36,551 bases of DNA from positions 1-36,551 of the forward strand of contig JAGBXB010000044.1 in the NCBI GenBank assembly GCA_017629515.1, read 5' to 3'. Within the stretch, counting starts at the first letter, position 1. Each line of letters opens with the position of its first letter. The position numbers were made by a program, and so were the translations under genes. Positions 11,227 through 34,635 of the stretch are shown here, piece after piece. The stretch is from Lentisphaeria bacterium (GTDB taxonomy: Bacteria; Verrucomicrobiota; Lentisphaeria; Victivallales; UBA1829). The notes beneath the pieces are model-generated. The model was not told the DNA's origin. It did not search any database and was given only the letters and a program-made list of their open reading frames with translations.

Positions 11227-11255
11227 TTGTAAAAAAACTCTTTTGCATGTATATT
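11227..11255 (+). promoter_or_regulatory. Sigma70-type promoter of ftsQ
   Basis: TTGTAA (11227-11232) and TATATT (11250-11255) are 17 bases apart and lie 32 bases before the ATG at 11288. Confidence 0.6.
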
Positions 11256-11287
11256 GATGAAAAGATTCTTGTAAAAGGTTTGGAAAT

Positions 11288-16269: not shown

Positions 16270-16270
16270 A

Positions 16271-17626
16271 ATGAAAATAGCTCTTCTTCCCCTTTATGTG
16301 AAATTGTATGATGATGTTGCCCCGGCCAACCATGAAAAGGCACAGAAATTTGCCGATGATGCCCTTAAAGCATTGGAAAAACTTTCTTTTGAAGTCGTTT
16401 CCGTTCCCCTCTGCCGTATTGCGGAGGAATTTAAGGATGCGGTAAAAAAGTTTGAAGAAGAAAAGTGTGAAGTCATCGTTACTCTGCATACAGCTTATTC
16501 CCCCTCTCTGGAATGTATTGATGCTCTTGCTTCCACAAAATTGCCCATTGTGGTTTTTGATACCACGCCGGATAAAGAATTTGAATTTTCGTTCGGGGGC
16601 AAACTTATGCTCAATCACGGTATCCACGGCGTGCAGGATATGTGTAATTTATTGTTGCAGAGGAAGAAAAAATTCCTGATCTGTGCCGGACATTATGAGA
16701 ACGCTTCCTATATGGAAAAAGTGAAAAATGCCATTACCGCTGCCTCCATGGCATATTCTTTTACTCATGGGAAAGTCGGGAATGTTGGCGGTGTATTTGC
16801 GGGAATGGGGGATTTCCGTATTCCGGACGGGGAATTCGGAATGGAAAATATTCCTTTTAAAGATGCGGAAGAATATCTGCCCACAGAAGAAGAGATCCAA
16901 AAGGAGATCTCCTGGGAAAAAGAAAACTTCCTTCTTGCGGAGGATCTTGCAGAAAAAGTGCAGTATGATACCGTGAAAAACTCTCTCAAACTGCGCAAAT
17001 GGGCAGAAAAAAATGCTCTTGACGCCTTTACCATCAACTTTCTGAAATGTGACCGCAGTATGGGATTTTCAGTCGTTCCTTTCTGCGAATGTTCCAAAGC
17101 TATGGCAAGAGGTATCGGCTATGCAGGGGAGGGGGATGTGCTTACCGCCCTTTTCTGCGGCACCGTGCTTAAAGTGAATAAAGAAACCACTTTTACAGAA
17201 ATGTTCTGCCCGGACTGGCAGGGAAACCGGATTTTTTTAAGCCACATGGGGGAAATGAATATTGCTCTTATGGATCAGAAACCTTTTCTTGCCGGAAGAG
17301 GGTGGAAGTTTTCCGATGCGGATGATATGGCAACCGCCACAGGTTGTCTGAAATCCGGAAAAGTCATCCTTGCCAATCTTGCACCCGGCGGGGAGGGGAA
17401 ATATACTCTTATTGCCTGTAAAGGGGTATTGACCGCACAGAATGACCCCCAGTTGAGAGATATGCGGGGATGGTTCGCTCCCGCTGATGGCAGAAATATC
17501 GGGGATTTTCTGGAAGAATACAGTAGAAAAGGTGGTACGCATCACAGTATCCTTTCTTATAATGGAAATATGGAAGTTTTTGCCTCCTTTGCATTCCTTA
17601 TGGGGTGGGATTTTGTGGAAATTTAA
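16271..17626 (+). CDS. L-fucose/L-arabinose isomerase family protein
   Basis: The 451-residue protein follows the amidohydrolase stop by one base. It has the FucI/AraA fold: an N-terminal alpha/beta region (IALLPLYVKLYDD, VIVTLHTAYSPSLECIDAL, LPIVVFDTTPD), a middle domain, and a C-terminal beta-rich domain. The likely Mn-binding and catalytic residues are in AraA-like contexts: Glu287 in GYAGEGD, Glu310 in FTEMF, His325 in SHMGEMN and His424/His425 in GGTHHS. Enzymes of this fold interconvert aldoses and ketoses in the cytoplasm. It is only a distant relative of true AraA or FucI, so the sugar cannot be named. With the kinase and amidohydrolase it suggests a pentose or deoxyhexose pathway. 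Confidence 0.85.
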   Translation: MKIALLPLYVKLYDDVAPANHEKAQKFADDALKALEKLSFEVVSVPLCRIAEEFKDAVKKFEEEKCEVIVTLHTAYSPSLECIDALASTKLPIVVFDTTPDKEFEFSFGGKLMLNHGIHGVQDMCNLLLQRKKKFLICAGHYENASYMEKVKNAITAASMAYSFTHGKVGNVGGVFAGMGDFRIPDGEFGMENIPFKDAEEYLPTEEEIQKEISWEKENFLLAEDLAEKVQYDTVKNSLKLRKWAEKNALDAFTINFLKCDRSMGFSVVPFCECSKAMARGIGYAGEGDVLTALFCGTVLKVNKETTFTEMFCPDWQGNRIFLSHMGEMNIALMDQKPFLAGRGWKFSDADDMATATGCLKSGKVILANLAPGGEGKYTLIACKGVLTAQNDPQLRDMRGWFAPADGRNIGDFLEEYSRKGGTHHSILSYNGNMEVFASFAFLMGWDFVEI

Positions 17627-17635
17627 GGAAAGAAT

Positions 17636-18805
17636 ATGCAGAAACTTTCAGAAAGAACAATGTCCTTTACCGATTCTGTTATCCGCAGGATGACAAGAGT
17701 TTCCAATTTGTATGATGCGGTGAATCTTTCCCAGGGGTTTCCGGATTTTGACCCGCCGCAGGAACTGGTCACCGCTCTTTCCCGTGTTGCCGTCAACGGC
17801 CCGCATCAGTATTCCATAACCTGGGGGGCAAAGAATTTCCGGGAGGCTCTTGCTGCAAAGCAGGAACATTTTACCGGAATGAAAGTTGATCCGGAAAGAG
17901 AGATCGTGGTAACTTGCGGCAGTACGGAAGCGATGATGGCAAGTATGATGAGCCTTGTAGATCCCGGAGACAAGGTGGCGGTCTTTTCCCCTTTCTATGA
18001 AAATTACGGGGCGGATGCCATTCTTTCCGGTGCGGAACCCATCTATATACCATTGCGGGTGCCGGAGTTTTATTTTGATGAAAGAGAATTGGAAGAAGCC
18101 TTCCGGAAAGGTGCAAAAGTTCTGATTTTGTGTAATCCTTCCAATCCCTGTGGAAAGGTTTTCTCTTTTGAGGAACTTTCCCTTATTGCCCGTCTGGTGG
18201 AAAAATATGATGCCTATGTGATCACCGATGAGGTCTATGAGCATATTATTTATGAACCCTGTAAACATATCCCTTTTGCCACTCTTCCCGGAATGAGGCA
18301 GAGAACAGTGATTTGTTCTTCTCTTTCCAAGACCTATTCCATTACCGGCTGGCGTCTGGGGTATGTGATCGCTCCTCCCGTTATTACGGAAACGATCCGG
18401 AAAGTGCATGACTTCCTTACTGTCGGGGCAGCTTCCCCCTTGCAGGAAGCTGCGGTCACCGCGTTGAAATTTGGCGATGAGTATTATAAAAGTTTACAGG
18501 AAAAATATACTTCTTTGCGGAAATTTTTCCTTGACGGCCTGGATAAGGCAGGTATCACCCATACCACTCCCTGCGGGGCATATTATGTTTTGGCAGATAT
18601 ATCTGAATTCGGGTATGACAGTGATTTGGAATTTTGTGAAGATCTTGCGGAAAAAGTCGGAGTCGGGGCAGTTCCCGGTTCCAGTTTCTTTAAAGAGGAT
18701 GTACGGCATCTGATCCGTTTCCACTTTGCCAAGAAAGAATCCACATTGCAGGAGGCTCTCTCCCGCCTGATGAAAATACGGGAACTTATGCCCCGTAAGA
18801 AATAA
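17636..18805 (+). CDS. Class I/II pyridoxal-phosphate aminotransferase
   Basis: The 389-residue protein starts 9 bases after the isomerase with AAGGA upstream. Landmarks are VNLSQGFPDFDPP, QYSITWGAKNFREAL, VVTCGSTEAMMA, LCNPSNPCGKVF, ITDEVYEHIIYE with the PLP-binding Asp, Lys232 in SSLSKTYSITGWRLGY (Schiff base), and the C-terminal RFHFAKKE with the substrate carboxylate Arg. The pattern is nearest to the kynurenine/methionine/aspartate aminotransferase branch. It closes the sugar-related operon; it could supply the amino donor balance for the class III enzyme or be an amino-acid gene that joined the transcript. No strong terminator follows. Confidence 0.9.
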   Translation: MQKLSERTMSFTDSVIRRMTRVSNLYDAVNLSQGFPDFDPPQELVTALSRVAVNGPHQYSITWGAKNFREALAAKQEHFTGMKVDPEREIVVTCGSTEAMMASMMSLVDPGDKVAVFSPFYENYGADAILSGAEPIYIPLRVPEFYFDERELEEAFRKGAKVLILCNPSNPCGKVFSFEELSLIARLVEKYDAYVITDEVYEHIIYEPCKHIPFATLPGMRQRTVICSSLSKTYSITGWRLGYVIAPPVITETIRKVHDFLTVGAASPLQEAAVTALKFGDEYYKSLQEKYTSLRKFFLDGLDKAGITHTTPCGAYYVLADISEFGYDSDLEFCEDLAEKVGVGAVPGSSFFKEDVRHLIRFHFAKKESTLQEALSRLMKIRELMPRKK

Positions 18806-19090
18806 GAGGTAATTTCAAAAGTCCCCGAAAGCAGATTCGTATTGACTTTGTTCTGCAAATGAAGCATTCCCGGCTGTTACCGCTGTGGGTGGCAGGCTCA
18901 AAATGAGATGCATATTTTGTGCGGTTGCCTGCGCACCAGCACAAAATTACCATTCACAGAACTGTGTCACTATTCTTTTCCTTTGTTTCGGATGACTTTT
19001 TCATTACCCCGTAAGTTTTTTCCAGAGTAAAAAAACGGCTGTAAAAAGAAAAAAATCTCGTTTTTTACTGGAAAAAATATTTTTTTATCG
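18806..19090. other. Intergenic region with a ~115-nt structured segment
   Basis: A closed structure is visible. GTTCTG near 18850 pairs with CAGAAC near 18957, flanked inside by TGAA/TTCA. Within it GGTGGCAGGC pairs with GCCTGC-G-CACC over about ten pairs with one bulge. A competing stem ATTTTGTGC/GCACAAAAT shares part of the loop. It is more GC-rich than the surrounding spacer and holds no ORF. I do not recognise 4.5S, 6S, tmRNA or a known riboswitch, and the strand is not certain. Confidence 0.4.
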
Positions 19091-21211: not shown

Positions 21212-21239
21212 TTGAAAAATCTTAATATTATGCTATATT
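21212..21239 (+). promoter_or_regulatory. Promoter of the nine-gene GTPase/channel operon
   Basis: TTGAAA (21212-21217) and TATATT (21234-21239) are 16 bases apart and the -10 box is preceded by TGC, an extended -10. Transcription would start near 21246, 38 bases before the first start codon. It is the only convincing promoter seen before the end of the operon at 34568. Confidence 0.7.
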
Positions 21240-21283
21240 CTGCATAACAGCAATGGATTCTGAATTTTTTACAGGAGGCAGAT

Positions 21284-22378
21284 TTGAAAAAGATAGTCTT
21301 TGTATTAGCTTTTATATTGACGGGTATGGCGGCATTTGGCGCAAAATATACGGATCTGACCGACCGGGATGAGGGGATTTTGCTTTTTCATCAGCGGCAG
21401 CATAAAGTCTATGTTTTCAAAAAGACCACCGGAAATAATTTCTGGCAGTGTTCTCTTTTCAGGGAAAACAAAGTGGAAGATCTGGATCCGAAATATTGCA
21501 TTGTGCTGGATGCGGATGAAGAAAGTATCACAGCGGAGGATGTGGCGATCAATTATGCCTATTACTCCAATAGAGCAACCTGGAACCGTTTCAAGGCATC
21601 GGCATACAGAAATATCGCCAAAAAAATGAATGCCCCCGCTATTATGCAGATCCTTGCTTTCGAGATGCAGTTGAAAAAACTTTCCGGCAGTATTGATGAT
21701 AAAGTGAATACTGCGGCAAGTATCATAAGAAGCGAAAAAATGAAAGAGTGGATGGATAAGGCGAATAATCCTGTATATAATGTGAAAACAAGTAGAAACA
21801 GTTTCAATAAACAGCCAGTGCTGAACAGAAAAAAACAGCCGGAAAATAACCGTGCCGAAGCCCAGTTGGAACTTATTGTGGAAGACCTGGAAGTAATGCT
21901 GGAAAAAAATGAATGCACAAAACTTATCCGCAGAACGGCGGATACCGATGGAAATTATTTTATTGCTTTTTCCATGTATATGAAATATTACGAATGTGTC
22001 AGAAGAGGTTTTGCCAATCTTAATGACGATTTGAGAAAGGAATTGTCTGCGGAAGTGCTTGCTCTCGGAAAAGAACTTTTGAGCAAATATCAGCAGCAGC
22101 GGGATAAAAATAAAAAACGGGAAAGTGATTTCAGAAATCTCTGTCAAGACATGCATGGCGCGTGGGAATATGCCAGTGCTTTGAGTATGAAGGAAATGCA
22201 GAGAAGCATGAAAAGTTTTTTTGTTTCCTATCAGAACCTGCGGATTTTTTCTTACCATACGGAATTTCCCAAGTGGGGGAATTGTGCATTGGAAGTATTG
22301 CAGATGATCGAATCTTCCGAACTGGAAAAGAAATTTGATGCGGCTCTTGCCTCCTATCAGAAGAGAGTTGCCCCCTGA
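21284..22378 (+). CDS. Secreted helical protein, first gene of the GTPase/channel operon
   Basis: The TTG start at 21284 has AGGAGG 5 bases upstream, one of the strongest ribosome sites in the window. The 364-residue product begins with a signal peptide cleaved after about residue 19 (GMAAFG/AKY). The remainder is hydrophilic. An N-terminal beta-rich part carries GNNFWQCSLFREN, and the rest is mostly helical, with a basic, Asn-rich linker near residues 165-190 and a long helix around 250-285. It matches no family I know. Its position, 36 bases ahead of the GTPase, makes it a likely periplasmic component or sensor of the same machine. Long frames on the opposite strand are antisense shadows. 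Confidence 0.75.
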   Translation: MKKIVFVLAFILTGMAAFGAKYTDLTDRDEGILLFHQRQHKVYVFKKTTGNNFWQCSLFRENKVEDLDPKYCIVLDADEESITAEDVAINYAYYSNRATWNRFKASAYRNIAKKMNAPAIMQILAFEMQLKKLSGSIDDKVNTAASIIRSEKMKEWMDKANNPVYNVKTSRNSFNKQPVLNRKKQPENNRAEAQLELIVEDLEVMLEKNECTKLIRRTADTDGNYFIAFSMYMKYYECVRRGFANLNDDLRKELSAEVLALGKELLSKYQQQRDKNKKRESDFRNLCQDMHGAWEYASALSMKEMQRSMKSFFVSYQNLRIFSYHTEFPKWGNCALEVLQMIESSELEKKFDAALASYQKRVAP

Positions 22379-22414
22379 ATAAAAAATGAATGTGTTTACG
22401 ATAAAGGTTGAACG

Positions 22415-24217
22415 ATGACGGAATATTTTATTATCAAAGACGGTGTGCAGGTCGGCCCCTATACATTGGAACAATTGGGGAAGATGCTGGATGGAAAAAT
22501 GATCTCCGGCAATACTCTTGTACGGATCAGCGGTGGAACGGAGGACGGGGAGCATCATGCGGTAAGCCGGCTCCTGGGAAACCGGACAGCAGTTCTGGGT
22601 GAACAGCAGAATATTGCCACTCTTTTAAGCGATGAAGGCAATGTGATGCGGATAGCGTGTCCCCTTTGCGGTCAGCATTATAAAATAACGGAAGATCTTT
22701 TTGAGACAAAAGCGTTCCGCTGTGTCAAATGTTCCTGCCAGTTCAAATTGCCGCCCCGTGCCGGAAAAACGCCCCATGCCGCAACGAATGCAGCATCGGA
22801 ATTTTTTGATACAGAGATACCGGAAGGGGATTTATTGTGTCCCCATTGCTGGAAAAGTTTTGACCGGGATTATGTATTGTATATTTCTGTGCATCCCTCT
22901 CTTTTCGGTGATCCCATTTTAGGGGAATATGTGCAGAAACGCTTTGTGCCTACTGTATTCAATCAGGCGGGGCAGCCTCTGGATCAATGCGGACTTCCGG
23001 CTACCGAGATGGCGTGTCCCAGATGTCACTTGCGGATCCCCTCCGGAATGGTGGATACTCCCGCATTGTACTTTTCCATTGCCGGGGCAACTTCCAGCGG
23101 AAAATCCTATTTCCTTACCTGCATGATCCATCAGTTGCGCAAATGCCTTTCCGATTACTTCGGAGCCGCATTTTTTGATGCCGATCCCCGGTTGAATGAG
23201 ACACTCAATATCTATGAAAAACAGTTGTTTATGGCTCTTGAACCCGGAAATATCACCGCACTGCCTGCCACCCAGATCTCCGGGGAGGGGATCTCCGACA
23301 GAGTGAAACTGGATGATATCGAAGTGGAGCTGCCCAAACCTTTTGTGTTTGAGTTCCGCAACAAGGACAGTCAGGATGATCTGAATATGGTCTTCTATGA
23401 CAACTCCGGGGAAATGTTCATTCCCGGAAGAGATGAGTGGGTGAACCAGGCAACATTCCATCTTTCCCATTCTGACGGGATCATGTTCCTTTTCGACCCA
23501 ACCAACGATGCCGCCATGCGGCTTGCTCTTTGTGATGCAAGAGATCCCCAGGTCTCCAAAAATCCCCGTGCGGTGGATCAGACGATCCTGCTTACGGAGA
23601 TGATCAGCCGGATCAGAAGACATGCCAATATGGTAAGTTCCGATACTTGCAAGATCCCCCTTGTTATTGCCGTAGGCAAATATGATACATGGAAAGAAAA
23701 ATTCCCTGTGGATCTTGCAAGCGTTCCCTATATAACAGAAGGGGAAACTCTGGATGACGATGTGAAACGCTCCCTGTATATGGAAAATATCCTTGCCGTT
23801 TCCTATAAATTGCGGGAAATGATGCTGCAATTCGTACCGGGACTTGTGAATGCGGCGGAAAGTTTCTTTGAAGAAGTGTATTTTGTGCCGGTAAGCAATT
23901 TCGGTACTCTGGCAGAACAGGATGCTGATGGCAGGATCGGCGTAGTGCCGGAAAAGATCGCCCCTGTCTGGGTGGAAGTACCCATATTGATCCTGCTTTC
24001 CAAAAATGAGCAGATCAGAGAAAAAGAGGTTTCTGTCCGCAATACGGGAACAGAATTGGGAAAAATCGTCAATAATCATATTGCATTCATCCATCCGGAA
24101 AACGGCAAACAGGTATTTCTCCCATCCAATTATGCCGGTATAGAATTGGAGATCGGCGGAAAACTTTACCGCCTGCCCGGAGGGAAAAGGGATAAAGTTT
24201 TGCAGAAAAAGATTTAA
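22415..24217 (+). CDS. GYF/zinc-ribbon P-loop GTPase (DO-GTPase2-like)
   Basis: The 600-residue cytoplasmic protein has three parts. Residues 1-45 are a GYF_2 (DUF4339) domain: EYFIIKDGVQVGPYTLEQLGKML. Two zinc-binding clusters follow: Cys82/Cys85 with Cys103/Cys106, and Cys142/Cys145 with Cys201/Cys204. Then comes a P-loop NTPase with Walker A GATSSGKS (224-231), a Walker B/switch II-like VFYDNSGE (Asp329) and AVGKYD (421-424) in the place of the NKxD guanine motif. The arrangement resembles the TRAFAC-like DO-GTPases that Aravind and co-workers linked to GAP1 proteins in predicted conflict systems; the next gene encodes such a GAP1-like protein. The G-K-x-D variant leaves guanine specificity to be tested. 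There are 36 bases to the gene upstream and 12 to the gene downstream. Confidence 0.82.
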   Translation: MTEYFIIKDGVQVGPYTLEQLGKMLDGKMISGNTLVRISGGTEDGEHHAVSRLLGNRTAVLGEQQNIATLLSDEGNVMRIACPLCGQHYKITEDLFETKAFRCVKCSCQFKLPPRAGKTPHAATNAASEFFDTEIPEGDLLCPHCWKSFDRDYVLYISVHPSLFGDPILGEYVQKRFVPTVFNQAGQPLDQCGLPATEMACPRCHLRIPSGMVDTPALYFSIAGATSSGKSYFLTCMIHQLRKCLSDYFGAAFFDADPRLNETLNIYEKQLFMALEPGNITALPATQISGEGISDRVKLDDIEVELPKPFVFEFRNKDSQDDLNMVFYDNSGEMFIPGRDEWVNQATFHLSHSDGIMFLFDPTNDAAMRLALCDARDPQVSKNPRAVDQTILLTEMISRIRRHANMVSSDTCKIPLVIAVGKYDTWKEKFPVDLASVPYITEGETLDDDVKRSLYMENILAVSYKLREMMLQFVPGLVNAAESFFEEVYFVPVSNFGTLAEQDADGRIGVVPEKIAPVWVEVPILILLSKNEQIREKEVSVRNTGTELGKIVNNHIAFIHPENGKQVFLPSNYAGIELEIGGKLYRLPGGKRDKVLQKKI

Positions 24218-24229
24218 GGGAATAAGAAA

Positions 24230-26968
24230 ATGTTTGAACTTGTCTATACATCTCTTCCACAGGGATTGCTGGCAGGCAGATCCGGGTTCTCCACTGCCGC
24301 ATTGACAGAAGGGTTCCCCGGAAATCTTATTTCCCCTATTGAAAATTTAAGCGGGTACAAGACTCTTTTCCCTCCCGGACATCCTGATGAAAAAAATAAT
24401 CCGGTAAACTATTCCTGTCAGCATTACCGTTTCGGGGCTTCTCTCTATATCGTATTGAGCCGGATCTCCTTTTACGGATTAAGTTATACCGGGCGATCCA
24501 ATATCCTTGCGCACCATCTGCTTTTTACTGCCGAAGAACTTTTGCAGATCCCCGGAGGACCGGTTGCGGTTTTGCGGGCAATGGAAAATTTCCCCCAATG
24601 GAGTGGAGCGCCCAGAATGCTGCCGCAGAAAAGTCTGAAAAATATCAAATGCAGGGCATTGCCTGTTGGCGGGAAAATGTGGAAACTATTGGCAGGAAAT
24701 GAACTTTGGGCAGATTATGCTGCTGAAATATTCCGGGGCAATCTGGATAAGAAAATGGTTCTTTCTTTTGATCCGGGAAGCGTTTCCGGAGAAGATATTC
24801 TGGAATTGTACGGGGAAATTGCCGCAAAACTTACTCCGGAAGAACAGTTATCTTTTACTTTCAATACCTACTCTTATTCTTCCGGCATCGCCAATCCTGT
24901 CTTTCTGCGGGCGTATCCGGTTGATTCCACACTTCTTTCCGGTGTGAAAAGATTGAATCCTGCTTCCATTGTGGAACTGGGGAAAGATAATCCCCTGCCG
25001 GATGGGTGGGTGCCGGTATCGCAAAATGTTGCGGGAATGGAAAAAAGTTTGCAGAATGAAGAAGAAAACGAAATTCTTCCGGCTGCTGATCCCATTCCGG
25101 AAGAAATCCCGGCAGAAAAAGTCACAGGAATAAGTTGCAGTGAAAATAAAAAAGTTTCTGTAAAAAATCCTGCTGTAACATTCAATACTGTCGAACCGGA
25201 GGCTCTGCCTTTCCCCTTTGATGTGGAGGAACAGAAAAAACGCACGGAACAGGTATTGGGGAACAGGAATAAACAGAAAGAGGAAAAATCTCCTTTATTT
25301 TGGGTGAGAACAGCTTCTGTTTGTCTCTTTGTCCTGCTTGTTGCCGCTTTTATCTGGGCGGCGGTATTCCGGACAGGAACAAAGCCTGAAAAAGTGGAAA
25401 AGGAAAATACGGATCTGGATGTGCTTCTTTCTGAAAATCTTGAAAAAGACTTTTCCAAAATGAAAAATGAGATATTGAAGAATGAAAAGGATTTTGTTAA
25501 AAAAGAAAAAGAAGTGAAGGATAAAGAAATAAAGGAAAGTGTTTCTTATAAAAAAGAGGATGTTCCCGTGAGGGTCATCGGCAGGGAGGCTGAAAAGAAA
25601 GAGGATAAGCCCGATACGGAAAGCGTGAAAAATATTCAAAACTCCACCCCGGAAGCAAAGGCTGCTGTTACTGTCAGAAAAACCGTCAAGGTAAAAAAAT
25701 ATAAGGCGGCATTCGGGATTCTGACAAAGAAAGAGTTGTTTGAATTATATAAACAATTCTGGAAAAGACCTTTCTCCGGTAAATTGATTTTGCCTCTTCC
25801 GTTGAAAAATTCATCCGGGATTCATGTGGATTTTTCCGGACTGAATGACCTGAAAGATGTGGATTGGAAGCAGTTTGTTGTGGGGAATGGGCAGAAGACT
25901 TTGTATATCTCTTCCGGAGAATGGAAGCGCGGTGCAATCGTAGAGGAATACAGTCCGTCAGAGAATGTTTCCGGACAAATGACCTTGAAATTGGAAAAAG
26001 GAACTCTTTTCATCCATATTCCTCCTGCGGGGAAAAACAGTCCCAACTTATCCCATATAAGAAAGGTGACATTCCTCCATGAAAACGGAAGCAGATTTAC
26101 ATTTGAGCCAAAGAATATGCCTGCCGGATTTGAAAAAGAACTTGAAAAAAATTATGGAAAGATCTATGTAAGAAAAGAAAACAGGCGTTTGGTGTATAGT
26201 TTGACCGTATCCGGACTTCTCTGGGATTTCCGGGACTTTTTCTTTTTGAAAGTAAATGGAAAAGTTCTGCGTAACCGTATCAGTGGGAAAGAGATCGTCA
26301 TACACCATATTGATACGGAAAGACTTTCCGGAATGATACGGAAACGCAATAAACTGCTTGCAGATTGGCGCAAAGCGGAAAAAGAACTTCTTGCTTTTCA
26401 GGAAAAGAATAAAAAACTTCTTTCCTATCCGGTACTGCCAGACGGGAAAAAAATCGTAAAACTGGCGCAGAAAAACAGCATCGCATTGCAGGACGGGATT
26501 ACAGAAAAGAAGCTGGATCTTACCCGTGAGATTGCGGATGTAAAAGAAGAGCTTCTTTCAATGGATGCGGAAGACTTTGCAGAAGAAAATGTCAGTACGG
26601 TAAATAATGGGAATACTGCTGTTGCTTCCCCGGAACCGGCAAAAGCCGATCCTCTTAAAGCGAAAGAAGTACTTCTGGAAAAACTTGGCGCATTTGAAAA
26701 GCAGTTGGATTCTTTTGCTCAAATAAAGGATAAAGAGGGCAATTTTGAAGAGAATTGCCGTATGGCAAAAGGAAAATTTGAAAAAAGCAATAGCAGGCTT
26801 ACCGCAGAAATGAAAAGTTTTTCTGTAAAATATTATACCGGAAACCAGAAAGAATTGCAGAGTTTTCTGCCCATAAAGGAAAATGTGCCCGAAGTTATAG
26901 AAAAACAGAATCTGCATGAACAGATCAGGATCGAAGTAATCAGGAGAAATGAAGATGGAATCTATTGA
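24230..26968 (+). CDS. GAP1-N2-like protein fused to a membrane stalk
   Basis: The 912-residue protein begins with a GTPase-associated protein 1 N-terminal-like domain (~1-270). Diagnostic are LVYTSLPQGLLAGRSGF at the start, LSGYKTLFPPG, and LSYTGRSNILAHHLLF with Thr87-Gly-Arg-Ser-Asn91 and His95/His96. Such domains occur almost only beside DO-type GTPases, and the GTPase gene is directly upstream. After a charged linker there is one membrane segment (~361-380), then an acidic/lysine-rich coiled region, a beta-rich domain (~490-690) and a long C-terminal coiled coil (~700-900). The GAP1-N part would be cytoplasmic and the stalk periplasmic. Known GAP1 proteins usually carry soluble middle and C-terminal domains, so this membrane-anchored form is unusual. 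The C-terminus overlaps the next gene. Confidence 0.78.
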   Translation: MFELVYTSLPQGLLAGRSGFSTAALTEGFPGNLISPIENLSGYKTLFPPGHPDEKNNPVNYSCQHYRFGASLYIVLSRISFYGLSYTGRSNILAHHLLFTAEELLQIPGGPVAVLRAMENFPQWSGAPRMLPQKSLKNIKCRALPVGGKMWKLLAGNELWADYAAEIFRGNLDKKMVLSFDPGSVSGEDILELYGEIAAKLTPEEQLSFTFNTYSYSSGIANPVFLRAYPVDSTLLSGVKRLNPASIVELGKDNPLPDGWVPVSQNVAGMEKSLQNEEENEILPAADPIPEEIPAEKVTGISCSENKKVSVKNPAVTFNTVEPEALPFPFDVEEQKKRTEQVLGNRNKQKEEKSPLFWVRTASVCLFVLLVAAFIWAAVFRTGTKPEKVEKENTDLDVLLSENLEKDFSKMKNEILKNEKDFVKKEKEVKDKEIKESVSYKKEDVPVRVIGREAEKKEDKPDTESVKNIQNSTPEAKAAVTVRKTVKVKKYKAAFGILTKKELFELYKQFWKRPFSGKLILPLPLKNSSGIHVDFSGLNDLKDVDWKQFVVGNGQKTLYISSGEWKRGAIVEEYSPSENVSGQMTLKLEKGTLFIHIPPAGKNSPNLSHIRKVTFLHENGSRFTFEPKNMPAGFEKELEKNYGKIYVRKENRRLVYSLTVSGLLWDFRDFFFLKVNGKVLRNRISGKEIVIHHIDTERLSGMIRKRNKLLADWRKAEKELLAFQEKNKKLLSYPVLPDGKKIVKLAQKNSIALQDGITEKKLDLTREIADVKEELLSMDAEDFAEENVSTVNNGNTAVASPEPAKADPLKAKEVLLEKLGAFEKQLDSFAQIKDKEGNFEENCRMAKGKFEKSNSRLTAEMKSFSVKYYTGNQKELQSFLPIKENVPEVIEKQNLHEQIRIEVIRRNEDGIY

Positions 26969-29900
26969 AAAAACGCTGGATGATATAAAAACTCTTGTGC
27001 AGAGTCAGGATCTTTCAGACGGTTTGCATTTACGGCAGCTGTATAAAAAAGGAATGAGTATTTTTGCAGAACTCAATGGAAATCTGGAAAAATGCCGGAC
27101 TATGATAAAAAACGGTCAGATACAGGATGCCCGCATTTTCAACTGCTCCTTTGCCGTTTCCCTTACGGCAACTGCGGAATATCTGGATGTGCCGGCAATA
27201 AGAGAATTTTTTGAGGTGTGCAGTGATTACGGTTTGGAAAAACCGAAATGGCCGGATCAGGAACTTCTGAATACTTTAAGTGTCCCCTCCTCCCATACGG
27301 AAAAGCGTCTCCATGAACTTTTGCAGGAGTACCGGAAGATCGCAAGGACAGCAACGAAAAAAGAGCGTATTGATATTTTGCGTCAGATCGTCAATAAACT
27401 TCCGGAATCTGTGCGTTGGCGCAATGATCTCATTGCCGCTGAAAGAGCAAGGATCATTGAGATCGAAAAAGCAATCGGGGAACTGCCGGATACTTTGGAA
27501 GCATTGCCGGAACTGGAAATGCTTTACAGGGAACTGCTTTCTCCGGATTGGCTGAATATGCCCAAAGGGGAACTGCTGGAAAAATGCCGTACAAAATTAT
27601 TGCCTTTACAGCAATCTTTTCTCTGTAAACAGGCGGATGAAAAATTGGAGGAACTGAATAACGCTTATGCAGAACGGGATCTGGAAGCATTGCGTAACGG
27701 TTTTGAAAATTGGAAAAAATTCTGTACCAATCCTCTTTTGAAACTCAACAGCGGTCAGAAACAAACTGTTGCTGATATTGAAAAATTCCTTGTGACAAAT
27801 GAGGAACAGGAACGGGGCAGAAAGGAACATGAAGTCCTGGTGGAAAAGTTGGAGGATCTTCTTGCTGCCAACTGTACTTTTGCTGATGTCGCCGGAGATT
27901 ACAATCAACTGCTTTTACAGTTGGATGAGTATCCTGTTGCTCCCAGTTTGCTGGAACGGTTGAAAAATCTTGAACAGGAACACCGCAGAGGGGAACATTT
28001 CCGCAATGTACGCAGATGTGTTTACGGTTTTGCTGTATCTGTTTTTACCATTACCATTATTGCAGTTCTCATTGTTCAGGTACAGAAATACCTTGCAATA
28101 AAACAGAATTGCAAAAATCTTGCTTCTCTCATTCAGCAGGAAAAATATCTGGAAGCGGCAAATCTGTATGTTTCTTTGCGTTCCTCCGCTCCTGTTATTG
28201 CCGCTGATGCGAGAGTTCTGGCTCTCTATAATTCTGCCATAAGAAAGCATGAAGAGAAAAAAGCTGAACAGAAAAAGAGGGAAGAAGAATTTGCCCGTCT
28301 GCTGAAACAGATCAGTCATCTTGCCAAAGGGGAGGATGTATTGGATAATGCAAAAGCCATTGATAAGAGCATTGAAGAAGCAAGAAAGATCGCCGGAGGC
28401 CAGAATGAGAAAGCACTGAATTCTTTCCGGGAACTGGAAACAACGATAGCGGAACGGCGTACGGAGATCAAGAAAAAACGGGAAAAGGAATTTTTGCAGT
28501 ATTGTGATAAAGTGATCCGGGATTCTGAAAGAAAACTCCTTTCCATTACAGAAACAGATCTGAAAATGCTTGCCTTGCATTTTGAAAAAACAGAAAAAGA
28601 TCTGAAACAGAAAATGGAACTTTTTCCCTATGTGCCGGAACATCTTAAAAAACGCATCCTTGTCTCCTGGCAGAGTTTTATGGAGCGTTTCAGGGATGCC
28701 GTTACAAGAGAAGAACGCCGGAGACTTGTGAAAATGCCTTATGATTTTGAAACATATTTGAAGGGGCTGGAAGAGATCCGGTATAAAGATGCCGCCCTTG
28801 CCGGAGAATACCGCAATGCCATTGGGTTGATGGGGCATTACCGGCAGATATATGAGACTTTTCTGGGGAATATCCCGGACAGTGTGGACGGGATCGGAGA
28901 TTTGAGTACTTATAAGGAGGGCGCACTGAAAAATGATCTTTCTTCCCTGTTGCCCGGAACGGCGGCAAGTAAAGGATTCCGGACATTTTTCGGGCAATTG
29001 CTGAAATTGAAGAGTTATTATGAATTGCACTTTACCACTGTGGATGGTCTGGATCATTTCTTCTACACAACAGAAAAACCGTTGTGTGAAAGACTCCGCC
29101 GCCCTGTAAGAACGCATATTTCCTTTTCCTCCCTGAAAAAGGATGGCTTTTTTACATTCCGGTATGAGCCCGGCGCAAGTGAAAGAGCCTATTCTCTGAT
29201 AGAATATCCGGCGGCGGAAAATTATACTTTACCGGCAGTATATGCTCTCCTTGACGGAAAGAAAAATTTTTCAAAAGAAAGTGTGGAAAAAAGATGTTCC
29301 GCCGGTCTTTTTGCAGAAAAATACAATATTTTGAGTTCAGACGGCCCCGGATTATTCCTGAATTTGCAGAATGCGTTACTGGATTTGAAGAATCCGGAAA
29401 ATATTGCCAATGTATATTTGAAAGAGGAAGTTTTTATTGCCCTTCTTGAAGAGTTCTGCCGTATTGCGCCCTCTTCTTTTTATCCGGAAGCAGAAAAGAT
29501 CCTGCAGAAATTCAAGAATATGCGTTCTTCCAGAACTCCCCGCTTCTGGCAGACTGTTTATGCCCACAGGGAATATAAGGAAGAAAAGGAAAGTCTTCTG
29601 GAAATGTGGGCAAATGCTGATCTGGAAAGTGCCTTTGAAGCCGGGAATTTAAGAAGAAACTTTATTTGTGCTTTCTATGCCCGTAAACTTGTTCCGGCGG
29701 GAGTGGTGCAGAGTGTAAAAAATAATAAGGTATCTTTCCAGCCCTTTGCCGTCAAAGGGGCGGAATATTATATCCTCAAAGATGAGAAATTAGTGGATGT
29801 GACTTCCTTTGTTCAGAGAAAAAGTGTTGACCGCAAACATGCCGGGATCTTTTTCCCCGGACAGGTGTTGTGGACATTCGGAGATGAGATCAAAAGCAGT

Positions 29901-29993
29901 TCCTTTATCAATGAATGGAAGAAAAAAGCATTGGAAAAGAATATCCATCTGGATGTGAAGATACAACTTCTTCCTGACGGGAAAGGATTGTGA
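26955..29993 (+). CDS. Very large single-pass coiled-coil membrane protein
   Basis: The ATG at 26955 has AGGAG 8 bases upstream; the ATG at 26949 would leave only 2 bases. The start overlaps the end of the preceding gene by 14 bases. The product has 1012 residues. The N-terminal ~350 residues are almost all helical and hydrophilic. One membrane segment lies at ~355-375 (YGFAVSVFTITIIAVLIVQV), followed by a highly charged coiled coil (~400-560) and a C-terminal mixed region of ~400 residues. No family is recognised and no catalytic motif is seen. The topology parallels that of the upstream GAP1-like protein (cytoplasmic head, one pass, long periplasmic stalk), so the two may form one scaffold. 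Confidence 0.75.
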   Translation: MESIEKTLDDIKTLVQSQDLSDGLHLRQLYKKGMSIFAELNGNLEKCRTMIKNGQIQDARIFNCSFAVSLTATAEYLDVPAIREFFEVCSDYGLEKPKWPDQELLNTLSVPSSHTEKRLHELLQEYRKIARTATKKERIDILRQIVNKLPESVRWRNDLIAAERARIIEIEKAIGELPDTLEALPELEMLYRELLSPDWLNMPKGELLEKCRTKLLPLQQSFLCKQADEKLEELNNAYAERDLEALRNGFENWKKFCTNPLLKLNSGQKQTVADIEKFLVTNEEQERGRKEHEVLVEKLEDLLAANCTFADVAGDYNQLLLQLDEYPVAPSLLERLKNLEQEHRRGEHFRNVRRCVYGFAVSVFTITIIAVLIVQVQKYLAIKQNCKNLASLIQQEKYLEAANLYVSLRSSAPVIAADARVLALYNSAIRKHEEKKAEQKKREEEFARLLKQISHLAKGEDVLDNAKAIDKSIEEARKIAGGQNEKALNSFRELETTIAERRTEIKKKREKEFLQYCDKVIRDSERKLLSITETDLKMLALHFEKTEKDLKQKMELFPYVPEHLKKRILVSWQSFMERFRDAVTREERRRLVKMPYDFETYLKGLEEIRYKDAALAGEYRNAIGLMGHYRQIYETFLGNIPDSVDGIGDLSTYKEGALKNDLSSLLPGTAASKGFRTFFGQLLKLKSYYELHFTTVDGLDHFFYTTEKPLCERLRRPVRTHISFSSLKKDGFFTFRYEPGASERAYSLIEYPAAENYTLPAVYALLDGKKNFSKESVEKRCSAGLFAEKYNILSSDGPGLFLNLQNALLDLKNPENIANVYLKEEVFIALLEEFCRIAPSSFYPEAEKILQKFKNMRSSRTPRFWQTVYAHREYKEEKESLLEMWANADLESAFEAGNLRRNFICAFYARKLVPAGVVQSVKNNKVSFQPFAVKGAEYYILKDEKLVDVTSFVQRKSVDRKHAGIFFPGQVLWTFGDEIKSSSFINEWKKKALEKNIHLDVKIQLLPDGKGL

Positions 29994-30000
29994 GGAACAA

Positions 30001-30888
30001 ATGAACCCGGTAAATGACTCTTTTCCCAGATACTACATAAAAAAGTCCGGCAGGATCACCGGACCATTTTCTTTATTGAAAGTAAAAGCCATGTTTCATT
30101 CCGGAGCGGTTTCCGGCTATGATATGTTTTCCATGGATAAAGTCTCCTGGCAGAGTATTTATCTTCTTTTTCCCCATTTGATCCCCGGAAAAGAAAAAGT
30201 TGATGCTGTGTCTGGTGCAACTTCCGGAAGTCCTTTCCCGGTAAATGGTGGAAATGTTTCTGACGCAGAAAAGGAAAATGGCAATGACAATGCAGCGCGG
30301 GCAGAAAGCAAAAACTTTTTTGTCCGTTTCCTTTGCGATACAGCGGAAACCATTTCCCTTGTATGGAAATATCCGGTACTTTCGGCAGAGGGAGGACGAA
30401 AATGGAAAAGATGGCTTTTTTCTGCCTGTATCCTCCATTTTGTCACTGCAACAGTTATGGTTCTGCTTTTCGGAAAATATTACAGCAAATCATTTCATTA
30501 TATTTTTTCTCTTCTCCGTGCCTGGGGGGGAGTTTCTGTATTGCTTTTGTTCTGTTTTCTGCCTGGGTATTTTCTTATCCGGTGCGGGAATAAGGAAGAG
30601 GTGAAAAGTAAAGAAAACTTTTTATCGTGTTCTGTGGCTCTTTTTGTGGATCACGGAATTGTGATGTGTGCATTAATGGCTTTATTTCATGCTGTTGTAA
30701 AAGTATCCATTCCGGGGATCATCGTATTGATGATTGTAAATGGGATCGTTTTGTGTGCTTCTTCCCGGCTTCTGGCGTTCTCATTGAAAGAAGCCAGGAG
30801 TGTGGCAGCGGAAAGCGTTTATCTTGCCGCAGTGCCGTTCAATGCTGTTTTCTGTTTACTTATATGGTATCTGGTCAAAATAATATAA
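30001..30888 (+). CDS. GYF_2-domain multi-pass membrane protein
   Basis: The 295-residue protein follows its neighbour by 7 bases with GAGGA before the ATG. Residues ~10-58 are a GYF_2 domain (YYIKKSGRITGPFSLLKVKAMF), the same domain type as at the N-terminus of the operon's GTPase. A linker of ~60 residues leads to a membrane part with five or so helices (from ~140: CILHFVTATVMVLLF, VSVLLLFCFLPGYFLI, IVMCALMALFHAVV, GIIVLMIVNGIVLC, FNAVFCLLIWYLV), an arrangement similar to Yip1/DUF1282-type proteins. The GYF domain should face the cytoplasm and could bind the same partner as the GTPase's GYF domain. Function is otherwise unknown. Confidence 0.75.
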   Translation: MNPVNDSFPRYYIKKSGRITGPFSLLKVKAMFHSGAVSGYDMFSMDKVSWQSIYLLFPHLIPGKEKVDAVSGATSGSPFPVNGGNVSDAEKENGNDNAARAESKNFFVRFLCDTAETISLVWKYPVLSAEGGRKWKRWLFSACILHFVTATVMVLLFGKYYSKSFHYIFSLLRAWGGVSVLLLFCFLPGYFLIRCGNKEEVKSKENFLSCSVALFVDHGIVMCALMALFHAVVKVSIPGIIVLMIVNGIVLCASSRLLAFSLKEARSVAAESVYLAAVPFNAVFCLLIWYLVKII

Positions 30889-30909
30889 AAGAACATAAAA
30901 GGAGAAAAA

Positions 30910-31773
30910 ATGGAAAAGAAACCCATTTCAAGAAGAGTGAGTGATATTGAGTGTATCTGCGGATTTGCAAGTAAAAAATTTACGGATGTAAATGTATTTT
31001 TTGCATTTTTTGCGGGAGTTGTGATTTTTGCCGTATTTTATGGGGCATTAAGTTTTTTCAGAGGCAGTCACTGGGCAGTGGATATGTTTTTTCACGGCGG
31101 AGCGGAAAACCGTTCTTCCATCCCCTATTACACGGTTTTTCTGGGGTGCTGGGCTTTGGCGATCCTGCTGGTGAAGTTGCAGAAATTAAGTGTGCAGAAA
31201 AAGGCTTTGCTTCTGGATATCCTGCCGGAAGATCCTGCTTTTGTACTTACCACAGCAACGGCAAAAAAGATTCTGGAAAATATTACCATACAGGTCATCA
31301 ATCCCAAAGATTTTGTTTTGCTTGACCGTATCGGAAGAGCTTTGACCAATTTGAAAAATCTGGGCAATGTCAGTGCGGTTGCCGAGTGCCTCAATACTCA
31401 GGCGCAGAATGATGAGGATTATCTTTCCAGTTCCTATACTGTATTGAAAGGCTTTATCTGGGCGATCCCCGTTCTTGGATTTATCGGAACTGTTCTGGGA
31501 TTGGCAGAGGCTATCGGCGGATTCGGCAGTGTGGTGAAAAAGGGTGTGAACGATCCCCAGGAACTTATTTCTGCTCTGGGAAATGTTACCGGAGGACTTT
31601 CCACCGCCTTTGAAACAACTCTTATAGCCCTTGTAATGGCACTCATTATCCAGTTGTTGATGACTGCCGTACTCAATAAAGAAGAATTGTTCCTGGACAA
31701 ATGTTCGGATTACTGCCATAAATATATCATAAGCAAGATCAAAAGCATAGATCTTGCCGATGACGGGGAATAA
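30910..31773 (+). CDS. MotA/TolQ/ExbB-family proton-channel protein
   Basis: The 287-residue protein has AAGGAG before its ATG. Two N-terminal membrane segments (~28-50 and ~75-95) are followed by a cytoplasmic domain and then the conserved pair of the MotA/TolQ/ExbB family: FIWAIPVLGFIGTVLGLAEAI (from ~181) and VTGGLSTAFETTLIALVMALIIQL (from ~226). In TolQ, ExbB, MotA and ZorA these helices form a pentameric pore around a MotB/ExbD-type dimer and convert the proton or sodium gradient into rotation or pulling. Two candidate dimer partners follow immediately. It is not true TolQ or ExbB: there is no TolR/ExbD, TolB, Pal or TonB gene nearby. Confidence 0.9.
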   Translation: MEKKPISRRVSDIECICGFASKKFTDVNVFFAFFAGVVIFAVFYGALSFFRGSHWAVDMFFHGGAENRSSIPYYTVFLGCWALAILLVKLQKLSVQKKALLLDILPEDPAFVLTTATAKKILENITIQVINPKDFVLLDRIGRALTNLKNLGNVSAVAECLNTQAQNDEDYLSSSYTVLKGFIWAIPVLGFIGTVLGLAEAIGGFGSVVKKGVNDPQELISALGNVTGGLSTAFETTLIALVMALIIQLLMTAVLNKEELFLDKCSDYCHKYIISKIKSIDLADDGE

Positions 31774-31780
31774 GAAAGAA

Positions 31781-32608
31781 ATGGCAAAAAAAGACAATTC
31801 CCCCGCCATATCCTTTTTCAGTTTTCAGGATATCATCACCTCCATAACAGGGATCATGTTTCTGGTGGTGATGATGCTTGTACTTATGATCTTGCAGCAG
31901 CCGGATTCTGCCGCAAAACAGATGGATAAAAAAGTAAAGGAAAATGTAAAGAAACTGGAACAGGAAGTAAAAGTACTCAAACAGAGTCTTCTTATCCTTG
32001 CCAAACAGGCGGAAATGCGCAAAAAACGGCTGGAAGAATTGAAAAAACTCAATATGGAAAAACTGCCTGCCATAAAAAATGAACTTGTTTCCAAACTGGA
32101 AGCGGCGGATGCTTTGCTTTTGCAGATGGATGCGGAGGAAAAAGATTTTCTGAAAAAACAGAAAGAGGAAGTGGATAAGAGTGCAAAATTGCTCCTTGAT
32201 CTGGATGAAAATGAAAAGTTGAAGAAAGAGAATGAACAGAAGATCGTTGAATTGAAAGATTTGGTATTGCGGCAGAAAAAACTTGCTGCAAAATATAAAA
32301 ATATCGTAAAATTCGTCTGGGATAAAAGTAATCCCAAACGCCCGGTGCTTCTGGATTGCAGTGAAAAGAAGATCGTGATGAATTCTCTTGACGGAAAAAT
32401 CCGGAACAAGAGTTTTTCCACAATAGCCGACTGTCTTGATTATTGTAAAACTCTTCCTGCCCATGATACTTATTTTATTCTTCTTATCAAGCCCTCCGCC
32501 TTTCATTATGCGGAAAATCTTTCCGCACAGTTGCGTGAGGCAGGTTTCGAGCGGGGCAGGGAGATCATTGCAAAAGAGGAACAGGTACTTATCGGAGGGG
32601 AGATGTGA
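31781..32608 (+). CDS. MotB/ExbD-like stator partner 1
   Basis: The ATG at 31781 (MAKKDNSP) is preferred over in-frame starts inside the preceding gene; it gives a 7-base gap and 275 residues. A basic N-terminus leads to Asp17 in FSFQDIITSI and one membrane helix (18-38), the layout of MotB, ExbD and ZorB, whose Asp carries the proton. A long coiled coil (~45-170) and a small alpha/beta domain follow. The latter contains RPVLLDCSEKKIVMNSLDG and HDTYFILLIKPSAFHY, a pattern I recall from ExbD-associated proteins of Planctomycetes and relatives. No OmpA peptidoglycan-binding domain is present. It is likely one of two pore-core partners of the preceding channel protein. Confidence 0.75.
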   Translation: MAKKDNSPAISFFSFQDIITSITGIMFLVVMMLVLMILQQPDSAAKQMDKKVKENVKKLEQEVKVLKQSLLILAKQAEMRKKRLEELKKLNMEKLPAIKNELVSKLEAADALLLQMDAEEKDFLKKQKEEVDKSAKLLLDLDENEKLKKENEQKIVELKDLVLRQKKLAAKYKNIVKFVWDKSNPKRPVLLDCSEKKIVMNSLDGKIRNKSFSTIADCLDYCKTLPAHDTYFILLIKPSAFHYAENLSAQLREAGFERGREIIAKEEQVLIGGEM

Positions 32609-32611
32609 AGT

Positions 32612-33550
32612 ATGAGTAGAAAAAGATCCGAAGAAGATTCCAGTCTGGAACTTTTGCTTGATACCATGTGCAATACTTTCGGCGGGGTGATGTTTATTGC
32701 CATTTCCCTTGCGGTAATGATTTCCATGAGAAGTGCAGTTTCCTCCGTTCAGGAAGATTATTCAGCGGAAAAACTGGCTTCTCTACAAAAAGAACTTGCC
32801 ACATTGCAACAGGTTTTTACTGTAAAAAAGCAGGAGACTGAACGTCTTGCCCTTGCGGTCAAAAATATGAGCAATGACCCCAGACTTATTCTGGTCAACG
32901 AAATAGCTTTCCTGGAACAGAAGTTGAAGGAAAGATTGCTGGAAGTGAAACTCAAAGAACAGAAAAGACTTCTTATCCAGACCCAGTTGACCGATATTTT
33001 ATCCAAAAATCTTAAAATCGCCAATGCCCTCAAAGAGAGTAAAGAAAAAAATATCGTATTGGAAAAAGAGATAAAAATATTTGAAGAAGAGTTGGATAAA
33101 CAGAAAAAAATCCTTTCCGTGCTTGTTCCGAAAAATCTGGTATTCAATACGATGGTGGAAAAAAATCTTGCGCCTTACTATATTATTGTCAATGAGGGGA
33201 AAGTCTGGAAAGTGGGACCGGAAATATCCGGGGATTCCTATAAACCGGATTCTGCGGTCAAATTGGAGATCAGAGGCGGGATCTATTATTGTCACCCCAT
33301 TGCCGGCAGAGGTACAGAGATTTTTGATAATGACGATTTCAGCGGAGAATTTCTGATGCTGATACAGAATCTTCCCAAAGACCGTGTGCCGGAATTTGTT
33401 ATCAGTAAAAATGATGCAGAAGTATTTGCAAAAATGCGGGAAAAGTTGAAAAAACAGAAAATTTTTCATGGCTTCAGCGTGCAGAAGAAAGAAAACGATG
33501 TCTTCGGTTATCATTTTATGAACAATGACAGGGGGAAATATGAATATTAA
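32612..33550 (+). CDS. MotB/ExbD-like stator partner 2
   Basis: The 312-residue protein starts 3 bases after its neighbour's stop, with a GGAGGGG stretch inside that gene's end. As in the neighbour, Asp17 lies just before the single membrane helix (LELLLDTMCNTFGG, then 25-37), with a basic N-terminus. A coiled coil (~45-175) and a beta-rich C-terminal domain (YYIIVNEGKVWKVGPE, LKDRV-like segments, GYHFMNN) follow. Overall sequence is otherwise different from partner 1, so they are not a recent duplication, and a heterodimeric pore core is possible. No OmpA-like domain is seen. The end overlaps the next gene by 11 bases. Confidence 0.72.
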   Translation: MSRKRSEEDSSLELLLDTMCNTFGGVMFIAISLAVMISMRSAVSSVQEDYSAEKLASLQKELATLQQVFTVKKQETERLALAVKNMSNDPRLILVNEIAFLEQKLKERLLEVKLKEQKRLLIQTQLTDILSKNLKIANALKESKEKNIVLEKEIKIFEEELDKQKKILSVLVPKNLVFNTMVEKNLAPYYIIVNEGKVWKVGPEISGDSYKPDSAVKLEIRGGIYYCHPIAGRGTEIFDNDDFSGEFLMLIQNLPKDRVPEFVISKNDAEVFAKMREKLKKQKIFHGFSVQKKENDVFGYHFMNNDRGKYEY

Positions 33551-34568
33551 AACGAAAAAAGTTGCAGGCTCTTTTCTGATTTTCTTTCTTTTCTGGACTT
33601 TGATCATCCTTGCAGGATTCCTGTTGCTTGACCATACCGGCGGAAGCGGCGGGGGCAAAGGCTCCGGATATGGCGGTTCCGGCAATGGGGCTGGAAGTGG
33701 TTACAGTTCCGGCGGCAGTGGAAGCGGGCAGGGGGGAACGGCTTCTTCCGGAAGCGGCGCTGGAAGTCAGAAAAATATGGAAAACGGGAAAGTAAATACA
33801 CAGGTAAAAACTTCTTCCAAAGCGGATACAAAAGGAAAAACTCCTGTTAAAAATCCTCCTCCGCAACAAAAAAATACCCCGCCTCCTGCGGAATCTTCTC
33901 CGGATCATGAGGGCGCGATCCGGGTCATGGACAACAACAGCAAAAATACAGATACCGCGACCTTTTACCTGCCTCAAAAAGTGCCTGTGGGGAAAAGCGG
34001 AAATGCCGGGACATCAAAAGGATTTTTCGGCGTGGAAGTGGGAGGGGAAGATAAGGTAATATTCCTGCTGGATGTTTCCGGCTCTATGGCAACGACCACT
34101 CCTGACGGCAATTCCACGCGTTTGCAGCTTGTGAAAAATGAGATGGCAAATTCTTTGAAATCCGGTTACCGGGATGCGGAAAACGGCGGGAAACGGGGGT
34201 ATTTCCGTATTGCGACATTCAGTAATGATTGCAGTTTTTTCCCGGAAAAAAAGACAAAATATTATTTCAGAAAGCGTAAAGAGATCCTTGACGCCATTGC
34301 ATTTGTCAATTCACTGAAAAGCGGAGGCGCAACAAATATGAGGCACGCCTGGGGAATGTTACTGCCCATCATCCGGGAACAGCAGATCAGGACGGTTTAT
34401 TTCCTTTCCGATGGAGAACCTACGGATTGTTCACCGCAATCTCTGCTTCAGTTCCTCAATAAAGAGTTTCCCACATTAAAAATCCATACTTTTTCTCTGG
34501 GCATGGCTTCCACACTTCTCAAAGATATTGCCAAAAGTCATAACGGGGTATACCGGGAGATCTTTTAA
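33540..34568 (+). CDS. Membrane-anchored von Willebrand factor A protein
   Basis: The ATG at 33540 follows GGGGGA; an upstream ATG at 33525 lacks a site. The 342-residue product has a basic N-terminus, one membrane segment (~9-30), a Gly/Ser-rich low-complexity stretch (~33-77) and a Pro-rich segment (NPPPQQKNTPPPAES). A vWA domain follows with a complete metal-ion-dependent adhesion site: Asp178-x-Ser180-x-Ser182, Thr265 in GGATNM and Asp291 in FLSDGE. Such domains bind protein partners through a divalent metal. The charge pattern predicts an extracytoplasmic vWA domain on a flexible tether. It is the last gene of the operon; a hairpin lies 40 bases on. Confidence 0.85.
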   Translation: MNIKTKKVAGSFLIFFLFWTLIILAGFLLLDHTGGSGGGKGSGYGGSGNGAGSGYSSGGSGSGQGGTASSGSGAGSQKNMENGKVNTQVKTSSKADTKGKTPVKNPPPQQKNTPPPAESSPDHEGAIRVMDNNSKNTDTATFYLPQKVPVGKSGNAGTSKGFFGVEVGGEDKVIFLLDVSGSMATTTPDGNSTRLQLVKNEMANSLKSGYRDAENGGKRGYFRIATFSNDCSFFPEKKTKYYFRKRKEILDAIAFVNSLKSGGATNMRHAWGMLLPIIREQQIRTVYFLSDGEPTDCSPQSLLQFLNKEFPTLKIHTFSLGMASTLLKDIAKSHNGVYREIF

Positions 34569-34603
34569 GAGTATTGCGGGTCTTTCCTGACTATGGTGGA
34601 TGC

Positions 34604-34635
34604 CCAAAAAAAGACCACCGATCCCGGTGGTCTTT
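34604..34635 (-). terminator. Terminator between converging transcripts
   Basis: AAAGACCACCG and CGGTGGTCTTT form an 11-bp stem. On the minus strand it is followed by a run of seven T, ending the right-edge gene. On the plus strand the T run is short, but the hairpin may still stop the vWA operon. Confidence 0.85.

Follow-up and report, generated by a model that had tools for sequence, protein, structure and literature searches.

A GTPase/GAP1 pair and a dedicated ExbB-type motor in one conserved operon: a candidate GTP-gated envelope machine of Lentisphaeria and relatives

Introduction

Why would a cytoplasmic GTPase and a GAP1 protein share an operon with an ion-driven membrane motor? The question is raised by nine genes (A–I, Table 1) on contig JAGBXB010000044.1 of a Lentisphaeria genome (GCA_017629515.1). 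The contig was analysed complete, at 36,551 bases (the window), and belongs to a 2.9-Mb genome, 82% complete, of a gut-type bacterium whose nearest named relatives are metagenome-assembled genomes of Lentisphaeria. We found that the operon recurs in distant genomes and that its channel gene belongs to an ExbB subfamily tied to it. We consider the operon, with a probability of roughly 0.58, to encode a single trans-envelope machine, gated by GTP and driven by ions, that works on the surface or the envelope.

Results

A recurring operon with its own channel

Relatives were collected by a wide search with an alignment of the gene B GTPase, and the best 80 of 433 were read; these came from Lentisphaeria, Kiritimatiellota and Planctomycetota. 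A single-protein search with the GAP1 protein over genome contigs gave no match, whereas the GTPase alignment did find relatives. GAP1-N2 was present in 11 of the 61 genomes of the relatives set, and all of its loci that were uncut before the motor had the order B-C-D-(E)-F-G-H, some with A and I added. Synteny of B-C-D-(E)-F-G-H(-I) was observed within Lentisphaeria, in remote families of the same phylum (loci L130–L134 and L139) and among Planctomycetota (L114). The operon is present in Victivallis vadensis DSM 14823 too (L049). As identical gene order recurs in distant genomes, the arrangement is more than chance, and the nine-gene operon is real. Strong gene B matches were found in 73 of 388 genomes of the phylum, so the system is patchy and not universal there.

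Gene F is closely bound to the operon. Among the same 388 genomes, 29 of its 36 strong copies lie no more than 13 kb from gene B on the same strand, and the other seven stand at contig ends that cut the operon, with operon genes visible beside them (the break in genome G038 was deduced from positions). Gene F is therefore a dedicated ExbB subfamily, obligately linked to the operon in 36/36 strong copies. Weaker ExbB relatives, looked at in nine genomes of other Verrucomicrobiota as potential counter-examples, form separate F-G-H trios that have other neighbours and no GTPase. In these stand-alone ExbB-ExbD-ExbD′ trios (L158–L166), the ExbB is 270–530 amino acids (aa) long, in one case with a zinc ribbon, and an autotransporter or beta-propeller gene adjoins in some.

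A first-pass annotation, made from the letters alone, had named co-occurrence of the same genes in distant genomes, patchily or in defence islands, as what would support its reading. The recurring order in Lentisphaeria, other Verrucomicrobiota and Planctomycetota, together with the gene B count, agrees with this. Homologous neighbourhoods lacking most of the genes, or universal distribution in the phylum, would have pointed elsewhere; for the motor part neither was observed, as the F subfamily was never seen without the operon and 73/388 is not universal. The synteny and the obligate link of gene F likewise support the broader picture of a conserved and patchy system of several genes that spans the envelope and has a GTPase/GAP1 pair accompanying an ion-motive channel.

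Conservation is uneven along the operon. Compared with L028, identity is 77% for gene F, 77% for the GTPase domain, and 93% and 84% for the transmembrane (TM) helices of G and H, and it falls to 25–30% in the coils, 27% in the periplasmic part of C and 34% in that of D. Judged by these sequences, the engine appears to be held fixed with the exterior drifting.

The proposed switch: genes B, C and D

Gene B has zinc ribbons, a Glu in Walker B and a GAP1 neighbour, as in DO-GTPase systems, and its catalytic motifs are intact: Walker A (G224..G229-K230-S231), D329-N-x-G332-E333 and K422-x-D424 are invariant across 13 homologues. Pfam confirmed its GYF_2 domain. The match to DO-GTPase2 (PF19993) was 19.4 bits, below the cut-off of 27, and a Pfam DO-GTPase2 profile search of the genome itself failed to pick up gene B; a homologue of the PilM type (described below) reaches 26.5 bits. 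The GAP1-N2 domain of gene C (PF20013) scored 69.9 bits against a cut-off of 24 (E = 2.8e-19). Its GAP1-M middle domain is weak (13.1 bits, E = 0.11) and is clear in the homologue at L078 (1.5e-9). For gene D, a single-chain model (pLDDT 86) gave a cytoplasmic helical domain, one long TM helix, and then long helices and beta domains. No fibronectin type III (FNIII) repeats were found by Pfam in any of the nine proteins.

The predicted motor: genes F, G and H

Gene F matched Pfam MotA_ExbB at 42.9 bits (cut-off 22.9, E = 4.8e-11), and its channel-lining threonines (T194, T236 and T237) and channel motifs are invariant in the alignment. For genes G and H, Pfam gave no ExbD match; both were considered ExbD/MotB-like because of an invariant TM motif with Asp, the predicted fold (gene G only) and their position. 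The proton-carrying Asp is kept in all 32 copies of G and all 30 copies of H that were read, and two rows missed by the Asp pattern still read FAFQD and FLDT. The structure models were all of single chains, with gene G the partner covered by fold prediction; its model comprises a TM helix, a 130-residue helix and an alpha/beta end domain, with E. coli TolR (5by4) as the third best solved match (E = 4.9e-3, probability 0.99). Profiles of the ExbB and of gene D found no match among solved structures, the gene G profile returned only coiled-coil noise, and an NCBIfam search of the operon proteins gave no useful match.

Putative periplasmic, surface and docking parts: genes A, E and I

Gene A homologues occupy the same position in L028, L032, L041–L045, L047, L049, L052 and others, and are absent from more distant copies. 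Gene E gives way to a GYF-trypsin protein in some relatives, such as one of the same genus (L029:15263-16627). Gene I matched Pfam VWA_2, a von Willebrand factor A (vWA) family, at 3.8e-8, and has the TM-linker-vWA layout itself. The SHLS motor-binding motif was found in the vWA TM helices of none of 14 homologues, nor in C or D. Two further neighbours were seen: a trypsin-SHD1 gene upstream of the operon in L114, and, next after the motor genes of L022 (10196-12286), a copy without the vWA gene, an ankyrin-repeat protein that has a zinc ribbon.

One TM helix is predicted in each of C, D, G, H and I, and about four in each of E and F; from these predictions follows the order of cytoplasmic switch, membrane channel and several periplasmic stalks. 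The first-pass part list was confirmed. Its secreted first protein has a signal peptide, its GTPase has the GYF domain and intact P-loop, Walker B and KxD motifs (though DO-GTPase2 stays below cut-off), and its GAP1-N2-like domain on a membrane stalk is a clear family match beside a single TM helix. The GYF multi-pass protein has four TM helices, though GYF_2 is below the Pfam cut-off. The MotA/TolQ/ExbB channel passed its cut-off with invariant threonines, the two MotB/ExbD-like proteins keep their Asp (with a TolR-like fold in G and no Pfam match), and the tethered vWA protein retains its metal ion-dependent adhesion site (MIDAS).

The core beside other envelope machines

The B-C-D core also has other partners. 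In one clade of 33 GTPases (support 100), a PilM-like gene (PF11104, 6e-16) stands beside it. At L078, from Oligosphaera ethanolica DSM 24202 (9509-19025), the GTPase has an FHA domain, a short GAP1 protein shows both the N2 and the M domain clearly, and the PilM-like gene is next; about 15 loci are similar. The two genes after PilM there, read from sequence and with no Pfam match, may be PilO- and PilP-like, and in these loci the same switch apparently occurs in a version for type IV pili or secretion. In three loci of Planctomycetota (L120, L113 and L118), a GYF protein follows D directly; in L120 (13773-15692), the locus that Pfam covered, it is fused to T2SSE (PF00437, 5e-97), a PilB/GspE-type ATPase. 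Two changes of partner suffice on the GTPase tree among its labelled rows, a count limited by the many unlabelled ones, mostly cut contigs; motor copies are spread over deep branches. With PilM or T2SSE as its neighbour in these other clades, the core has the look of a switch that serves machines spanning the envelope.

Locus layout and boundary signals

Nine same-strand open reading frames (ORFs) fill 21284-34568, with gaps of 36, 12, 7, 21 and 3 bases and overlaps of 20, 20 and 26 bases, in agreement with the co-directional, tightly packed genes annotated at first pass. Starting gene G at a conserved ATG (31781) and not at TTG 31754 turns the F/G overlap into a 7-base gap. AGGAGG stands immediately 5′ of the TTG start of gene A (21284). 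Of the single promoter and single terminator said to bracket the operon, both sites are present, but they are weak taken alone, because such matches barely exceed chance across the region (32 promoter-like against 23.7 expected, 19 terminator-like against 17.5). The hairpin probably also terminates the convergent gene, as the longer of its T runs is that of the minus strand. An RNA family search of the region found none. Upstream, 12528-18805 holds a sugar-use cluster of ordinary metabolism (aminotransferase, FGGY kinase, amidohydrolase, L-arabinose-isomerase-like protein and a further aminotransferase).

Table 1 Features of the operon in the window.
Feature	Position	Strand	Description	Evidence
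Promoter	21212..21239	+	sigma-70-like, extended -10	10/12 match, weak taken alone
Gene A	21284..22378	+	364 aa; soluble secreted protein with a signal peptide; no known domain	ORF, Pfam, signal/TM prediction
Gene B	22415..24217	+	600 aa; GYF_2, zinc ribbons, TRAFAC-type GTPase of DO-GTPase kind	Pfam, motif alignment
Gene C	24230..26968	+	912 aa; cytoplasmic GAP1-N2 domain, one TM (362-380), fast-evolving periplasmic part	Pfam, TM prediction, comparison with L028
Gene D	26949..29993	+	1014 aa; cytoplasmic helical domain (1-350), one TM (358-376), long periplasmic helices and beta domains; no known family	predicted structure, TM prediction
Gene E	30001..30888	+	295 aa; GYF domain and 4 TM	Pfam (GYF_2 below cut-off), TM prediction
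Gene F	30910..31773	+	287 aa; MotA/TolQ/ExbB channel, dedicated subfamily	Pfam, alignment, synteny
Gene G	31781..32608 (ORF opens TTG 31754)	+	ExbD/TolR-like partner 1: Asp-bearing TM, coiled coil of ~130 residues, end domain like that of TolR	TM motif, predicted fold
Gene H	32612..33550	+	312 aa; ExbD/TolR-like partner 2: TM motif LLLDTMCNTFGGVMFIA, coil, end domain	TM motif alignment
Gene I	33525..34568	+	347 aa; TM at the N terminus, linker rich in Gly/Pro, vWA in the periplasm (MIDAS DVSGS)	Pfam, motif alignment
Terminator	34609..34635	.	terminator-like hairpin AAAGACCACCG..CGGTGGTCTTT	fold z=-4.2; probably two-way

Discussion

In the machine that we propose, gene F would form a five-fold ion channel around an unlike inner pair, G and H (an ExbB5:ExbD-ExbD′ motor), whose coiled-coil rods of ~130 residues (~190 Å if straight) would carry motion far into the periplasm. 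Gene B would be a cytoplasmic GTPase switch that is recruited through its GYF domain and zinc ribbons and has the GAP1 domain of C as its partner. Both the motor and the fast-evolving periplasmic domains would receive the nucleotide state across the inner membrane by way of C and D. E may serve as a membrane dock, and I and A as periplasmic or surface ends. The GTP state would switch or assemble the ion-driven machine, whose work could be adhesion, motility-like force or export. We infer this assembly, its coupling, the direction of control and the physiological role from the anatomy of the parts.

Several points weigh against the proposal. Gliding as such is made less likely by Victivallis vadensis, a non-motile coccus that carries the operon. 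Many copies lack the vWA gene and gene A, so that the surface end varies. The match of gene G to TolR is weak, and a Foldseek search with the gene D model found no significant match among solved structures, only weak ones of the tetratricopeptide repeat (TPR) kind. Finally, B-C-D occurs with no motor nearby in L121, L123–L125 and L128.

This last point is also what could favour the reading that two unrelated gene sets, a GAP1-N2 system and an ExbB/ExbD transporter motor, do no more than share an operon, as could the motor relatives that lack the core. We regard this as very improbable, because the closest motor subfamily is always accompanied by the core, in different families and in two phyla, and even under changed gene order (L134, L135 and L136). 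The stand-alone F-G-H trios would also favour an outer-membrane energiser of the Tol/Ton kind, in which the motor would pull or push the outer membrane or peptidoglycan via the vWA protein and the GTPase would control only timing, for example in division or envelope upkeep; tolQ with two unlike tolR genes and vWA has been described in bacteria of the Planctomycetes-Verrucomicrobia-Chlamydiae (PVC) group (PMC12204202). Such an energiser is improbable here: SHLS is absent from the vWA TM helix in 14/14 copies and from C and D, this motor never occurs without the GTPase, and a system that is not universal is not basic upkeep.

A defence (conflict) system is possible and not favoured; we think it unlikely. 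Rods or vWA would sense phage or toxin at the envelope, the channel would open or turn, and the GTPase/GAP1 pair would trigger a response, as ZorA/ZorB of Zorya do with cytoplasmic effectors. GAP1-N2 systems have been predicted to be conflict systems, GYF-trypsin, swapped into some copies here, is one of the proposed effector kinds (Kaur et al, 2020; PMC7159879), and the patchy distribution, the fast-evolving exterior and weak ZorA/ZorB profile matches fit as well. However, the operon has no nuclease or toxin, its core alternates with pilus or secretion genes and not with toxins, and ZorC, ZorD and ZorE are missing. Nor are the flanks richer in defence genes than control regions: 90 genes flanking 16 motor-type loci matched about 5 defence protein kinds and 90 control genes about 7, in a small control picked non-randomly. 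The idea of a defence island was not supported by this count, nor was the defence role considered at first pass, the channel also matching ZorA only weakly (2.9e-5).

These findings make GTP control of envelope machines a testable idea that competes with the conflict-system reading: an ion-driven motor goes with one large GAP1/DO-GTPase branch in every case, and pilus or secretion parts go with sister branches. GAP1/DO-GTPase systems are widespread, and we know of no tested function for them. More tentatively, GTPase-GAP1-D might be a general GTP-operated control module, with a private ExbB-ExbD-ExbD′ motor here and a PilM-type platform or GspE/PilB-type ATPase in sister clades, so that this stretch might encode a new class of GTP-switched proton motor. 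As Victivallis vadensis DSM 14823 has the operon and Oligosphaera ethanolica DSM 24202 the PilM variant, study in culture is possible.

Comparison with known systems

Four known systems resemble the operon in part. Zorya shares an ExbB/MotA-type channel with a long-armed partner and has one kind of partner where two are found here. Against PADLOC profiles, the nine proteins reached 2.9e-5 (21 bits) for ZorA2 and 18.3 bits for ZorB1 (cut-off 400), below family cut-off, and none of them matched ZorC, ZorD or ZorE.

The Agl-Glt machinery of Myxococcus appears closest in layout, in a likeness of working parts and not of membership. In kind, it shares a GTPase (MglA), a GYF protein (AgmX) and a vWA adhesin (CglB). 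Its MglA/MglB pair is Ras-like, whereas the GTPase here is DO-GTPase-like and of another family, and GAP1 is to our knowledge not related to MglB. The solved AgmX GYF domain (7z3c), among the few solved matches to GYF parts, matched a homologue of gene E at 9.5e-4. Agl-Glt likewise combines one TolQ-like protein (AglR) with two TolR-like proteins (AglQ and AglS), here F, G and H (PMC3169522, PMC13104615); its outer-membrane set and Glt proteins are not in the operon here, and its genes are not in one operon.

The two halves of the operon are better matched separately. DO-GTPase/GAP1-N2 systems were defined, with predicted conflict roles, by Kaur et al (2020; PMC7159879), who noted planctomycete GYF fused to trypsin or TM-rich parts and whose text contains neither ExbB, MotA nor TolQ. 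Shared are the zinc-ribbon GTPase with a Walker B Glu, the adjoining TM GAP1-N2 protein, GYF fused to a TM-rich or trypsin part, vWA in some, and PVC hosts; their FNIII protein was not found here, whereas gene D and the ExbB-ExbD-ExbD′ motor are added here, with PilM or T2SSE in other clades. PVC motors of one TolQ-like protein, two unlike TolR-like proteins and a TM-tethered vWA protein, with a TPR gene, were proposed as force transducers, many with SHLS (PMC12204202, MBE 2025). They share these motor parts and hosts, but our vWA protein lacks SHLS, and that paper mentions no GTPase or GAP1.

Our literature search found no published work that joins the GTPase/GAP1 half with an ExbB-type motor half and, as far as the literature found shows, the operon combines two known kinds of module in a way not described before. 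The first-pass proposal of a new system therefore stands in part: both halves were already in print (PMC7159879, PMC12204202), and what is new is the junction of GTPase/GAP1 with the motor, an ExbB subfamily dedicated to the operon, and the exchange of the motor for PilM/T2SSE modules.

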